Shown here: piece by piece, positions 19,971 through 32,868 of the stretch
How positions within the stretch are numbered: the stretch's first letter is position 1
Layout of the letters: each line of letters starts with the position of its first letter
Translations under genes and position numbers: made by a program
Notes under the pieces: generated by a model
Database searches by the model: none
Seen by the model: the letters and a program-made list of their open reading frames with translations, nothing else
Told to the model about the DNA's origin: nothing
Assembly (NCBI RefSeq): GCF_009762795.1
Contig: NZ_CP046400.1
Location: 1,713,501-1,777,500 of the forward strand
Reading direction: 5' to 3'
Origin: Pseudodesulfovibrio cashew
Lineage (GTDB): Bacteria; Desulfobacterota; Desulfovibrionia; Desulfovibrionales; Desulfovibrionaceae
DNA: 64,000 nt

Positions 19971-20096
19971 TCCGCCCTCGCGAAGCGAACCAAAAAGTTT
20001 AGGAGGGAGAAGGGGATGGGGGGTCCGGGGGGAAGGGGAAGAGGGAAGCCCTTTACAAAGGGTTCCCTCTTCCCCTTCCCCCCGGCCGCCGGAGGC
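19971..20096 (+). repeat. Palindromic intergenic element, copy 2 of 6
   Basis: The order is tail (GCGAAGCGAACC, AAAAAGTTTAGG), spacer GGGGATGGGGGGTCC, palindrome, then edge GGCCGCCGGAGGC. The edge GGAGG (20091-20095) lies 6 nt before the TTG start of livF and is the only plausible ribosome-binding site of that gene. Confidence 0.85.
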
Positions 20097-20101
20097 ATCC
20101 A

Positions 20102-20902
20102 TTGAGCGATATACTGAAGGTCGAGAATCTTGAGGTCGTGTACAACGACGTGGTCCTGGTCTTGAAGGGCCTGTCCCTGTCTTGCCCCGAGGGCGAGATC
20201 ACGGCCCTGCTCGGGGCCAACGGTGCGGGCAAGTCCACGACGCTGAAGGCCATCTCCGGGCTGCTGGAGACCGAGGACGGCGAGGTCACGGACGGCGCGG
20301 TCGTGTACAAGGACGAGCCCATCCAGGGCATCATCCCGGAAAAGATCGTGCGCAAGGGCATCTTTCAGGTCATGGAGGGCCGCCGCATCTTCGAGGACCT
20401 GACCGTGGAGGAGAACCTCCGGTGCGGCGCGTTCACCCGTCCGCGTTCGGAGACCGTCAGGAACATGGAGAAGGTCTACGAGTATTTTCCGCGCCTGAAG
20501 GAACGGCGCAAACAGCTTGCGGGCTACATGTCCGGCGGCGAGCAGCAGATGTGCGCCATCGGCAGGGCGATCATGGCCAGGCCGGATCTGCTCCTGCTGG
20601 ACGAGCCGTCCCTGGGGCTGGCCCCCATGCTGGTGGAGGAGATCTTCGATATTATCAAGAAGTTCAACGCCAGCGAGGGCGTGACCGTGCTGCTGGTGGA
20701 GCAGAACGCCCGGGCCGCGCTCTCGGTGGCCAGCCAGGCCTACATCATGGAGAACGGCAGGGTGGTCATGGAAGGGACTGCAGCCGAGCTGCTCGACAAC
20801 CCGGACGTGCAGGAGTTCTACCTGGGCATGGGCCATGGCGGCGACAAGAAGAGCTACCGTGATGTAAAACATTATCGCCGCCGCAAACGCTGGCTCGGGT
20901 AG
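20102..20902 (+). CDS. livF: Branched-chain-type ABC transporter ATP-binding protein 2
   Basis: The 266-residue ATPase starts at TTG 20102, six nucleotides after GGAGG. It contains Walker A GANGAGKSTT, the Q-loop FQVMEGRRIFEDLT typical of LivF, signature MSGGEQQMCAIGRA, Walker B LLLLDEPSLGLAP and VEQNARAAL. It is the second ATPase of the LivFGHMK transporter. The C-terminus is extended by a basic tail (KSYRDVKHYRRRKRWLG) that is long for the family. The gene is followed by two 150-bp repeats rather than a terminator. Confidence 0.93.
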   Translation: MSDILKVENLEVVYNDVVLVLKGLSLSCPEGEITALLGANGAGKSTTLKAISGLLETEDGEVTDGAVVYKDEPIQGIIPEKIVRKGIFQVMEGRRIFEDLTVEENLRCGAFTRPRSETVRNMEKVYEYFPRLKERRKQLAGYMSGGEQQMCAIGRAIMARPDLLLLDEPSLGLAPMLVEEIFDIIKKFNASEGVTVLLVEQNARAALSVASQAYIMENGRVVMEGTAAELLDNPDVQEFYLGMGHGGDKKSYRDVKHYRRRKRWLG

Positions 20903-20910
20903 CGCGGCTT

Positions 20911-21180
20911 GCGAGAGCGGCGCATCCGCTGCGTTGGGAGGATTGCGCCCGTCCTCGCCGTATTGGGATACGGCTGCGGGTGGCGCGAATCCTCCCGCCT
21001 TGCGGCTGCACCACTCTCGCAAGCCGCGCGGTGTGTCTGGGAAAGGCAGGATGTCTCACTAGGCAGGCGGCGCATCCGCTGTGTTGGGAGGATTGCGCCC
21101 GTCCTCGCCGTATTGGGATATGGCTGCGGGTGGCACGAATTATCCCGCCTTGCGGCTGCACCACTCTCGTAAACCATGCG
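20911..21180 (+). repeat. Two tandem 150-bp palindromic repeats
   Basis: CGCATCCGCT occurs at 20921 and exactly 150 bp later at 21071, and about 110 bp around each are some 93% alike. Each unit is an imperfect palindrome: GGGAGGATTGCGCCC pairs with GGGTGGCGCGAATCCTCCC, and the centre CCGTAT-TGGG-ATACGG is itself a hairpin; in unit 2 one central pair becomes a G-U type (ATATGG). The order CTGCGTTG ... GCCTTGCGG resembles the repeats at 1235 and 26246. The remainder up to 21466 holds no gene I can support. Confidence 0.85.
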
Positions 21181-21466: not shown

Positions 21467-21585
21467 CTCCCGCGAAGCGCGTTAAAAAGTTTAGGAAAGA
21501 AGAGGGGATGGCGGCCGGGGAAAGGGGAGAGGGAAAACCCTTCTCGAAAGGGTTTCCCTCTCCCCTTTCCCCGGCCGCCGGAGGC
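21467..21585 (+). repeat. Palindromic intergenic element, copy 3 of 6
   Basis: Tail GCGAAGCGCG then AAAAAGTTTAGG, then a palindrome with centre AAACCCTTCTCGAAAGGGTTT, then edge GGCCGCCGGAGGC. GGAGG (21580-21584) lies 7 nt before the ATG of the next gene. The GGACCCCC spacer seen in other copies is shortened here. Confidence 0.85.
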
Positions 21586-21591
21586 AACACC

Positions 21592-22830
21592 ATGTACTAC
21601 AGCGAATACGAGACCGAGCCGCGCGAGAAGCGGATGAAGCGGAAGTGGAAGGGCGTGCGCGACGTGCTGATTGCTGCCGAGGCCCATTCGGGCGAGTTTC
21701 AGGCCCGGCTTGAGGCGTTGGGGGCGTGCGCTCGCGATTTCAAGGACTGGGACGACTACGGCAAGATTCCGCCCCTGAGGAAGAAGGATCTCATCGACTG
21801 GCAGAAGGAGCACGGGCTGGGTTGGTTCCTGGACTGCGAGCCGGGGCAACTCAAGCGCATCTACCAGTCTCCGGGACCGATCTTCGATCCCGAGGCCAGG
21901 GAGGAGGACTACTGGGCGTGGTCCGAGGGCTTCTTTGCCGCGGGAGTCCGTCCGGGGGACTTGGCGCAGATGACCTTTTCCTATCACATGACGCCCGCCG
22001 GGCTGATGCTTGAGGAGCCCCTGCGCGATATCGGGTGCGCCGTGATTCCCGCCGGGCCGGGTAATACCGATAAGCAGATCGAGTTCCTGACCGGGCTTCC
22101 GGTCACCGTATTCGTGGGCATGACCAGCTATCTGAAGGTCATCGGGGAGAAGGCCCTGGCCGCGGGGTATGACCTGAAGAAGGATTTTTCCCTGAAAAAG
22201 GCGTATGTGGCCGCCGAGCCGCTGCCGGAGTCCCTGCGCCGGGAGGTGGAGGAGATGTTCGGGATCTCGGTGCGTCAGGGGTACGGCACGGCGGACGTGG
22301 GCTGCATCGCCTACGAGTGCATGGAGCTGGCCGGTATGCACCTCTCCAACTATCGCCATGTGGAAATATGCGATCCGGCCACGGGCGAGCCGTTGCCCGA
22401 GGGCGAGGTCGGCGAGGTGGTGGTCACCCCATTTTTTACCGACTATCCGCTGGTCCGGCTGGCCACGGGTGATTTGTCGTCCATCGACCTGACGCCGTGC
22501 GCCTGTGGACGCACCGCCAGGAAGCTGACGGGCTGGAAAGGGCGCGCCGACGATACAGCAAAGGTCAAGGGACAGTTCCTCTATCCCTCGCAGGCTGCCA
22601 CGGTTTTCTCGAAATATCCGCAGGTTGCCAACTGGCAGATACGGATTGAGAATCCTGGTGGACGTGACGAGCTGGCCGTGGTACTGGAGGTCGGACACGG
22701 TCTGGACACCGAAGCGTTCGCGGCGGATTTCCAGGCGGTCATGAAGTTGAAGCCCATCGTCGAGACGGCGGCTCCCGGGACTATCCCGGTCGACGCCCCG
22801 AAGCTCGTCGATGAACGGACTTTCGATTAA
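21592..22830 (+). CDS. Phenylacetate-CoA ligase-like protein with altered phosphate loop
   Basis: The 412-residue soluble protein aligns with the PaaK branch of adenylate-forming enzymes: GCAVIPAGPGNTDKQIEFL, then VGMTSYL, KAYVAAEPLPESLRREVE, VRQGYGTADVGCIAYEC and the ATP-handling LVRLATGDLSS. The usual glycine-rich TSGTTG.P loop is missing: at the expected place (about residues 93-102) the sequence is YQSPGPIFDP. It may therefore use a modified active site or be a non-catalytic relative. It begins at ATG 21592, whose GGAGG site belongs to repeat copy 3, and ends in its own terminator. It follows the liv transporter genes on the same strand. Confidence 0.82.
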   Translation: MYYSEYETEPREKRMKRKWKGVRDVLIAAEAHSGEFQARLEALGACARDFKDWDDYGKIPPLRKKDLIDWQKEHGLGWFLDCEPGQLKRIYQSPGPIFDPEAREEDYWAWSEGFFAAGVRPGDLAQMTFSYHMTPAGLMLEEPLRDIGCAVIPAGPGNTDKQIEFLTGLPVTVFVGMTSYLKVIGEKALAAGYDLKKDFSLKKAYVAAEPLPESLRREVEEMFGISVRQGYGTADVGCIAYECMELAGMHLSNYRHVEICDPATGEPLPEGEVGEVVVTPFFTDYPLVRLATGDLSSIDLTPCACGRTARKLTGWKGRADDTAKVKGQFLYPSQAATVFSKYPQVANWQIRIENPGGRDELAVVLEVGHGLDTEAFAADFQAVMKLKPIVETAAPGTIPVDAPKLVDERTFD

Positions 22831-24056: not shown

Positions 24057-24401
24057 TTAGCAGGAGCAGGAACCGGAGGAGCAGCCGCCGCCGTCGGTGG
24101 AGCAGGAGCCTGAAGAGCAACCGCCGCCTCCGCCGACCGGGTTCTCGGAGTCAACGACGAACCCGTAGTATGTCATGTCTATTTTTACTTTGCCGGTCTG
24201 GGCAAGCAGTTCCTTGTCGATCAGGAAGGAGAATCCACCGGCCTCGAATACTTCGTCTTTGTCGTTAGGCTCATCCAGAGCCAGAGTCAGGCGCGGGCCT
24301 GCTCAGCCACCTGCTGCCAGATAGACGCGTACCGGGGACGCTTCCTTGTCCTTGAAGTAGCCCTCGAGCTGCTTTTGCGCAGCTTCGGTCAGTTCAAACA
24401 T
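24057..24401 (-). CDS. HesB/IscA-like selenoprotein (in-frame UGA = selenocysteine)
   Basis: The gene runs from ATG 24401, with a strong AGGAGG 8 nt upstream, to TAA at 24057-24059 and is interrupted in frame by one TGA at 24303-24305 (codon 33). Reading the TGA as selenocysteine gives a 114-residue protein. The flanks read VRVYLAAGG-U-AGPRLTLALDEP, which aligns residue by residue with GGCSGPRLSLA and GGCTGTKLMLA of the two neighbouring paralogues, so the UGA occupies the invariant metal-ligand cysteine. After the UGA the frame continues through FSFLIDKELLAQ and IDMTYYGFVVDS to a tail of GGGGGCSSGSC-type repeats. HesB-like selenoproteins are a known group in bacteria. A sequencing error is unlikely because the frame, motif and codon use remain good on both sides. 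A standard gene finder would miss it or split it. Confidence 0.9.
24268..24305 (-). promoter_or_regulatory. UGA codon and candidate bacterial SECIS hairpin
   Basis: The TGA is at 24303-24305. Downstream in the message lie a small hairpin CAGGC-CCGC-GCCTG and then GGCTC-TGGAT-GAGCC (24268-24282), whose loop holds GG about 29-33 nt from the UGA. Bacterial SECIS elements lie just 3' of the UGA with a G-rich apical loop, so the second hairpin is the better candidate. Assignment by eye is tentative. Confidence 0.5.
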
Positions 24402-26258: not shown

Positions 26259-26530
26259 CGCGGCGTTCGCTGCGTTGCTGCGCGAAGTGCAGACCCTCGC
26301 GTAGGAAGACTACGCTTCGGTCCTGCTCTTCACTTGCGCCTTGCGCCCGTCCCGCTCTCGCAGCCGAGGCTCATGCTCGGGGGTATTGTATGAGGTCTCT
26401 CGCGTAGGAGGACTACGCGTCGGCCCTGCTCTTCGCTTGTGCCTTGCGCCTGCCCGGCTCTCGCAGCCGAGGCTCGGAGTGTTGTATGAGTTCCCTCGCG
26501 TAGGAGGACTACGCGTCGGGCCTTCCATTG
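26246..26530 (+). repeat. Tandem palindromic repeats after the YkgJ-like gene
   Basis: Three partial units share CCTCGCGTAGGAGGACTACGC with the centre GTAG..CTAC (near 26296, 26401 and 26495), each followed in part by CTTGCGCCTTGCGCC. Between them TCGCAGCCGAGGCTC occurs at about 26358 and 26463 and inverted (CCTCGGCTGCGA) at the gene's end (26246). The order GCTGCGTTGCTGCG ... CTTGCGCCTTG matches the repeats at 1235-1600 read in the opposite direction. 26531-26746 holds no gene that I can support. Confidence 0.8.
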
Positions 26531-26746
26531 CTTGTGCTCGGTTCATTCTCGGAGCCAAGGTTCATGAGGAGCTTTGCAGGAAGAGTTGGCGGGGACGTTT
26601 CCGAGTGGGGGGATTTACTTCGGGGGAAGCGTGGTCAGCTTATGCATTGGGGCTCTTGTCCTAGCACAGCATGGGCTTGTTGAAGATGGGTGAACTCGTA
26701 GGAAGAGTGGCGTTACCCGAATTGAAGGCTGGACCGCTCCTTGACC

Positions 26747-31519: not shown

Positions 31520-31675
31520 GCTGTCCCGGAAGCGGTTGAAATTTCCTTACAAGGCGCAGCGGAAGAACTATCACGGATGGCGTCAGGCTTCAACAGGCCC
31601 CACAGGTGTTTACACGGCGAGGGCCAGGGTGTATCCCTCCGTGACCGATCTCAATTCGTACGCAAAGAGGTACAA

Positions 31676-32743
31676 ATGCAAGCACGATTCGACGCCGCCG
31701 TTGCGGCCATATGTCCCGTGGACCGGGAACTCGCCGCCAAAGGGCAAGCCCATATCGACAGCCTGACCAAGCCCTTGGGAAGCCTCGGCAAACTGGAGGA
31801 ACTCGCCTTGCAGCTCTTCCTCATTCAGGAGGGCAACGCGCCTCAGGCCGACCCCATGCGCATCTACACCGTGGCTGGCGACCACGGGGTCAACGAGGAG
31901 GGCGTCTCCGTGTACCCGCAGGAGGTCACCCGCCAGATGATCCTCAATTTCCTTAACGGCGGGGCGGGCATCAACGTTCTGGCCGGGACAGCCGGGGCGC
32001 AGTTCTACGTGGTTGACGCCGGAGCCTGCGGCGGTACCTTCGATGAACACCCGCTGCTCATCCAGGCCAAGGTCGCGCCCGGCACGGCCAACCTGGCCAA
32101 GGGCCCGGCCATGACCCGCGAACAGTGCCTCCAGGCCCTGCTGCTCGGCATCGACCTGGCCGACCGCGCCCATGCGGACGGCGTCAAAATTCTCGGCACG
32201 GGCGATATGGGCATCTCCAACACCACGCCCTCCACCGCCCTGTATTGCGCCTACCTCGGGTTGGAGCCCGAACCCATCACCGGCCCCGGCACCGGCCTTG
32301 ACAAGAACGGCGTGGCCAACAAGGCAGAAGTCATCCGTAAAGGCCTTGCCGCCAACAAGGACGCCGTCGAATCCGGCGATCCCCTTGCCATCCTGGCCGC
32401 TCTCGGCGGCTTCGAGATCGCGGCCCTGGCCGGGTTGATCCTGGGCGGCGCCAGGAACCGCCAGCTCGTGAGCGTGGACGGCTTCATCTCCACCGCCGCC
32501 TATGCCGCCGCTTACGCCCTCTGCCCCACGGTCAAGGACTACTGCGTCATCAGCCATGCTTCCGCCGAGCCGGGCCACAAGGCCGCCGTGGCCAAGCTGG
32601 GCATGACCCCGCTCCTGGACCTGGGCTTCCGTCTGGGCGAAGGCACCGGCGCCGCCTGCGCCATGTACCTCGTGCGCAGCGCCGCCGACATGTACAACAA
32701 GATGGCCTCCTTCGCCGACGCCGGCGTGGACGAGGCCGAGTAA
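31676..32743 (+). CDS. cobT: Nicotinate-nucleotide-dimethylbenzimidazole phosphoribosyltransferase
   Basis: The 355-residue enzyme makes alpha-ribazole phosphate for the lower ligand of cobalamin. The start at 31676 has AGAGGT 5 nt upstream. Motifs are DSLTKPLGSLGKLE near residue 25, TVAGDHGVNEEGVS near 65, GTGDMGISNTTPS around 180, and the catalytic glutamate region with GGFEIAALAGLIL near 250. Length is usual for CobT. The upstream region shows no cobalamin riboswitch that I can see. Palindromic element copy 4 begins 6 nt after the stop codon. Species lower base may be different from dimethylbenzimidazole. Confidence 0.94.
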   Translation: MQARFDAAVAAICPVDRELAAKGQAHIDSLTKPLGSLGKLEELALQLFLIQEGNAPQADPMRIYTVAGDHGVNEEGVSVYPQEVTRQMILNFLNGGAGINVLAGTAGAQFYVVDAGACGGTFDEHPLLIQAKVAPGTANLAKGPAMTREQCLQALLLGIDLADRAHADGVKILGTGDMGISNTTPSTALYCAYLGLEPEPITGPGTGLDKNGVANKAEVIRKGLAANKDAVESGDPLAILAALGGFEIAALAGLILGGARNRQLVSVDGFISTAAYAAAYALCPTVKDYCVISHASAEPGHKAAVAKLGMTPLLDLGFRLGEGTGAACAMYLVRSAADMYNKMASFADAGVDEAE

Positions 32744-32749
32744 GAAGAC

Positions 32750-32868
32750 GCCTCCGGCGGCCGGGGGAAGGGGAGGAAAAACCCTTTTGAGAAGGGTTCT
32801 TTCCTCCCCTTCCCCCGGACCCCCATCCCCTCCTTTTCCCAAACTTTTTGAGTTCGCTACGCTCAGAG
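32750..32868 (-). repeat. Palindromic intergenic element, copy 4 of 6
   Basis: Starts with GCCTCCGGCGGCC 6 nt after the cobT stop, then the palindrome with centre AACCCTTTTGAGAAGGGTT, GGACCCCCATCCCC, AAACTTTTT, and a tail GTTCGCTACGCTCAGAG. Its edge faces cobT. The copy is inverted relative to copy 5 and tail-to-tail with it across about 300 bp. Confidence 0.85.

Follow-up and report, generated by a model that had tools for sequence, protein, structure and literature searches.

The window analysed here, meaning the whole stretch of 64,000 nucleotides from Pseudodesulfovibrio cashew, contains a reading frame of the IscA/HesB family that is interrupted once by UGA, at the place where proteins of this family hold their first metal-ligand cysteine. 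Is this codon a true stop, or is it read as selenocysteine (Sec), and what would such a protein do beside two neighbours that have ordinary cysteine (Cys) there? The features that the argument needs are, in positions of the window:

24415-24410, minus strand: ribosome-binding site AGGAGG, 8 nt before the ATG (direct reading)
24401-24057, minus strand: putative selenoprotein gene of the IscA/HesB family (NF038090), 114 residues and a stop codon, predicted Sec at codon 33
24401-24399, minus strand: ATG start codon (direct reading)
24305-24303, minus strand: in-frame UGA, codon 33, where IscA/HesB proteins have their first metal-ligand cysteine
24282-24268, minus strand: candidate bacterial SECIS hairpin, GGCUC / loop UGGAU / GAGCC
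24059-24057, minus strand: stop codon TAA (direct reading)
about 24028-23991, minus strand: strong terminator-like hairpin 3' of the stop codon, T tract weak (from the fold of 24045-23995)
23839-23519, minus strand: Cys paralogue with GGCTGTKL, SECIS stem incomplete, 76.1 bits with NF038090 (below the cut-off of 85)
23314-22985, minus strand: Cys paralogue with GGCSGPRL, SECIS stem incomplete, 95.6 bits with NF038090

An earlier note on this DNA had claimed a single TGA at the first metal ligand, within GG-U-AGPRL, Cys at the corresponding place of both adjacent paralogues, and a strong ribosome-binding site. All of this holds when the sequence is read directly. The TGA is codon 33, both same-strand neighbours have Cys at the site, and the AGGAGG before the ATG is kept in all eight aligned loci of the genus; the strand, which the note did not give, is minus. 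The terminator that was said to bound the gene stands only in part: a strong hairpin does follow the stop codon (the fold of 24045-23995, with the last hairpin bases cut off, has -22.7 kcal/mol and z -3.2), but it has a poor T tract, and the terminator scan gave no call for the hairpin at 24028-23991.

Since the 2000s, HesB-type selenoproteins have been described from these bacteria, and the gene in the window is no new kind. In the parts of the literature drawn on here, HesB is already counted among the known selenoproteins in 2005 (PMC1242214, PMC1088965), the 2006 survey gives HesB-like selenoproteins for Desulfovibrio vulgaris and D. desulfuricans (PMC1794560), and a paper of 2007 names DVU_1382, with an in-frame TGA, as the one in D. 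vulgaris (PMC1914089). The statement of the earlier note that such proteins exist in some bacteria is thus borne out by papers of 2006-2007, and NCBI has a curated model for the family, NF038090 (IscA_HesB_Se), which the protein in the window matches over its full length and above the curated cut-off, with no difference found. With the Desulfovibrio proteins it shares the family name, the organism group, the in-frame TGA and the UxGP motif (for the motif, the part of the 2026 review drawn on here, PMC13188914). We see no difference of kind from DVU_1382, judged from descriptions and not from the sequence of DVU_1382; the copy in the window is adjoined by two Cys paralogues. The HesB-like selenoprotein of Methanococcus maripaludis is alike in having Sec in a HesB-like protein and differs in being archaeal, and archaeal SECIS elements mostly lie in the 3' UTR (PMC11097638, PMC13188914, in the parts drawn on). 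The M. maripaludis protein has been labelled with 75Se and its function was called not clear, and disruption of the gene of this distant HesB-like selenoprotein, quoted there as unpublished, left nitrogen fixation unimpaired, a point against the explanation given below (PMC11097638, likewise in part). Our literature search, which may have missed a functional study of the bacterial protein, gave no paper naming NF038090 and none joining a HesB selenoprotein with an A-type carrier.

One reading is that the UGA is a true stop, leaving a truncated or dead gene, or else a sequencing error, the latter being a case that the earlier note had allowed for; UGA is a stop by the standard table, and the two intact Cys paralogues adjoining the gene fit with this. 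Against this, a UGA copy of the gene was counted in every one of the 36 genomes of the genus, and because all of them hold it, the codon is not a sequencing error. The codons 3' of the UGA are moreover, judging by a comparison with seven congeners, under purifying selection, with silent changes far in excess of amino-acid changes (dN 0.035-0.127, dS 0.49-0.87), which argues against a dead gene. The nearest named relatives by protein are mostly Pseudodesulfovibrio, with identity up to 84%. In the order as a whole, a family match was found in 116 of 120 genomes drawn from it, and many among the matches listed carry one TGA. One genome of those surveyed has, besides a normal pair, a weak and distant family match with one in-frame TGA (G147:C1:1480793-1481017).

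A true stop is also hard to reconcile with the full set of Sec machinery. The earlier note had proposed to look for selA, selB, selC and selD in the same genome, and all four were found in the single contig of 3.9 Mb that was searched: a tRNA-Sec (selC) with a tca anticodon at 80.8 bits, selB at 387.5 bits, selA at 608.5 bits, and selD at 338.5 bits, the last with one in-frame UGA in its own frame. The formate dehydrogenase alpha model also has two matches in this genome (G000:C1:1476442-1477197 and 2258253-2259002); both are under the cut-off, have one in-frame TGA each, and are probably further selenoproteins.

The signal that would direct such a reading was sought by comparison, because Rfam at its gathering thresholds found nothing in the window. 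Near 24240-24310, where the earlier note had advised a search, folding and comparison brought out a hairpin at 24282-24268, the stem of which begins 20 nt and the loop 25 nt after the UGA. The limits for bacterial SECIS elements, in the part of the 2026 review used here, are a loop of 3-9 nt with G in its first two positions, a stem of 4-16 bp, 16-37 nt from UGA to loop, and an energy of at most -7.5 kcal/mol (PMC13188914). The loop of 5 (UGGAU), the stem of 5 and the distance of 25 nt lie within them, and so does the fold energy, -7.6 to -8.8 kcal/mol for stretches of 15 to 24 nt. By itself the fold is weak (z -1.8 for the window sequence folded alone over 55 nt), and energy separates the two kinds of copies imperfectly, with 6 of 70 UGA copies above -7.5 kcal/mol and 3 of 50 Cys copies reaching it in a 20-nt stretch.

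It is the pairing that sets the copies apart. UGA copies have GGCUC-UGGAY-GAGCC, or paired variants of it, at +21 to +35 after the UGA. From 129 family hits, of which 9 with neither Cys nor UGA at the site were dropped, we obtained 70 UGA and 50 Cys copies; all five stem pairs are present in 69 of the former and none of the latter, and in rows coding ALDE the stem is complete in 69/69 UGA against 0/32 Cys genes (Fisher p 5e-27, related rows not discounted), counts that give no prevalence since the loci were chosen by UGA status; for the genus, prevalence is given by the count over its 36 genomes. Sixty of these loci had been picked for showing UGA, and 19 of the 20 others as having a listed match without it, 8 of which also held a UGA copy. 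In the ALDE rows the Ala codon is GCT in all 69 UGA genes and in 1 of the 32 Cys genes. In 28 further genomes of the genus the stem is complete in 28/28 UGA and 0/30 Cys copies (2 family hits classed as neither are left out), and in 80 named loci, some sharing genomes, it is full at 71/71 UGA sites and 2 of 48 pattern-fitting Cys sites. Because Sec and Cys copies stand side by side in one genome, each can be checked against the other: nearly the same residues follow the site in both, but the hairpin is complete in the Sec copy and not in the Cys copies. The earlier note had counted Cys orthologues in the same strain against its own reading; the Cys paralogues are separate genes, in which the stem is incomplete.

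Covariation adds to this, with a reservation as to its source. All 325 cells pair in the SECIS alignment, which has 65 distinct rows. Both sides are changed in 22 cells, and the covariation score is 0.220; none of 500 shuffles attained either value. Of the five measures, two fail to exceed the shuffles (both-side-changed pairs, 500/500; further pair types, 173/500). All of the both-sided change is in one of the five stem pairs, the outer one, which is G-C, U-A or C-G. Part of this pair falls within the codon that follows ALDE, which encodes either P or Q. The both-sided change thus also tracks the amino acid, and the Cys copies are the better control. Alignment A1 excludes a second, diverged UGA copy from L093, which alone among the UGA copies has 4/5 pairs. 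That copy (minus strand, start near 2287, FGVGURGPKL) is in tandem with the usual UGA copy.

Because of the Sec machinery, the conservation of the UGA and the comparison with the Cys copies, we find it very probable that the gene encodes a selenoprotein of the HesB/IscA fold in which UGA codon 33 is read as Sec. SelB with Sec-tRNA would read the codon as selenocysteine because the SECIS hairpin lies downstream, with its loop at 25 nt. The stem is complete in the UGA copies and not in the Cys copies, which also goes against a true stop, and we give that explanation almost no credence. Reading of the UGA as some other amino acid, tryptophan or cysteine, and thus without selenium, has nothing in its favour beyond the open frame; the SECIS stem, the Sec machinery and the presence of Cys or UGA at the site in 120 of the 129 family hits make it exceedingly improbable.

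What kind of protein is then made by recoding at codon 33? The earlier note had suggested a search with the recoded protein, and this leads to the IscA/HesB family by sequence models and structure matches alike. NF038090 is matched at 122.9 bits (cut-off 85, E 5.7e-36) and PF01521 at 34.4 bits (cut-off 26.3, E 2.8e-8), and the UxGP motif is present as GGUAGPRL. TIGR01911 (HesB_rel_seleno), the model listed for HesB-like proteins in the part of the 2026 review drawn on here (PMC13188914), gives 40.4 bits against a cut-off of 66.35. The equivalog models of IscA, SufA and ErpA match far under their cut-offs (25.3, 28.3 and 23.9 bits against 150.6, 136.2 and 117). The predicted model, with a mean pLDDT of 77.9, has the IscA fold and matches structures of the A-type carriers IscA and SufA (PDB 1x0g, 1s98 and 2d2a; E 4.8e-6 to 2.6e-4), although the fold matches are moderate, with TM 0.52-0.65 by query length and the best, 1s98, at 0.65 by query and 0.75 by target. 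The first-ligand position is alike too, with the Sec site aligned to the conserved Cys of PDB 1nwb and 2apn; the protein in the window differs from IscA and SufA in having Sec for Cys and a long tail rich in Cys and Gly. Column 33 is invariant in 61 rows when U is read as C, and C95, C100 and C112 are at least 90% conserved. In the tail, with its several CSSGSC-like units, residues 91-108 and 112-114 have a pLDDT below 50, and because of this low confidence the full ligand set is not seen in the model.

In the A-type carrier fold, a selenolate would stand in for the thiolate of the first metal ligand, where it would be expected to alter the metal chemistry, and the glycine-containing, Cys-rich tail with its CSSGSC units would likely provide the other ligands. 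The likeliest role, at roughly even odds, is that the selenoprotein takes up an Fe-S cluster or a metal, which it hands on, beside the Cys paralogues. It is quite possible, if somewhat doubtful, that a selenoprotein of this fold is instead no Fe-S carrier and serves in other metal or metalloid binding, in redox chemistry or in selenium storage. IscA ends in a short CGC-type tail, unlike the several CSSGSC-like units seen here, which is in keeping with such a different role. According to the part of the 2026 review drawn on, Sec may bind metal in some families, and what most selenoproteins do is not clear (PMC13188914). The match of fold and first ligand to IscA-type proteins speaks for a carrier, however, and so does the rest of the genome: at E 0.001 NF038090 finds the three copies of the window only, and PF01521 finds no other A-type protein, though not exhaustively. 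From these searches the genome is likely to be without A-type proteins besides the three copies; this is not certain, because the genome search with PF01521 returned the selenoprotein only and so missed a Cys paralogue that Pfam does match as a protein. With only three family copies found, some of them may therefore have to serve the carrier role, and a sulfate reducer in which they are the only A-type proteins found is one where the function of HesB-like selenoproteins can be tested.

The point most worth following is that pairs of Sec and Cys copies recur. All 36 genus genomes combine a UGA copy with one or more copies that have Cys at the site; the Cys partner in G114 has a decayed motif, DDCNGS. 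Of 35 loci with both kinds, 30 have the Sec copy first in transcription order and 5 have the Cys copy first. With the Sec column masked, a tree built from 128 rows and 96 columns requires 15 changes to account for the Cys label, and the branches with starred support alone force 6 such changes, many forks being weak; examples with starred support are the grouping of the two copies of L114 and that of L052 with L122, which lie at two places in one genome. The direction of Sec/Cys change is not given by the 128-row tree. That the Cys copies form one clade across the order is rejected (p-AU 2.85e-5, 48 against 69 rows), in a quick tree whose groups were named with the first tree already in view and from which 11 of the 128 rows were left out, namely 10 labelled neither motif and the second copy of L093. 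Since the Cys copies are not one clade over the order, the Sec/Cys pairs would have arisen more than once, or gene conversion would keep neighbours alike, and this is possibly new.

Two Cys copies, L193:595-644 and L204:1339-1388 (with TGT and TGC), retain a complete SECIS-like stem. This is what would be expected of a recent Sec-to-Cys change, and the two stems point to that direction at these loci. In the part of the 2006 survey drawn on here, two Sec-to-Cys and no Cys-to-Sec events are given for HesB-like proteins, and repeated Cys partners would extend those two events in the family (PMC1794560). A third paralogue without Cys at the first ligand place, with the tail Cys kept, was seen in L054, L056, L057, L067 and L074.

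The upstream regions of Sec and Cys copies differ, and a block with TTGACA is common to the Sec copies in 8/8 genus loci; no switch motif was identified upstream of either kind in the aligned genus loci. Methanogens hold Sec and Cys isoforms of methanogenesis enzymes. We tentatively suggest, as an idea rather on the unlikely side, that the selenoprotein may belong to a standing pair of Sec and Cys isoforms, and that such pairs may be remade by duplication with Sec-to-Cys change, or gene-converted, and serve as a selenium-dependent switch or in mixed oligomers.

The neighbouring genes gave no functional clue in the 80 loci, some of which are from one genome. A gene that we take to be phosphoribosyltransferase-like is within the fetched stretch in 45 of the 80 loci, and presumably AroK-like and YkgJ-like genes are so in 12. 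Among plasmids, a search found 8 matches, all distant and partial. Elsewhere in the window, short near-duplicate stretches in the ORF translations at 20909-21177 and 26310-26558 are apparently intergenic and possibly belong to a dispersed intergenic repeat. Similar letters (KGFPLPLPP, KGFPSPLSP) recur in the ORFs 20053-20361, 21508-22830 and 31610-32842, which suggests a dispersed repeat that lies close to where genes end or begin.
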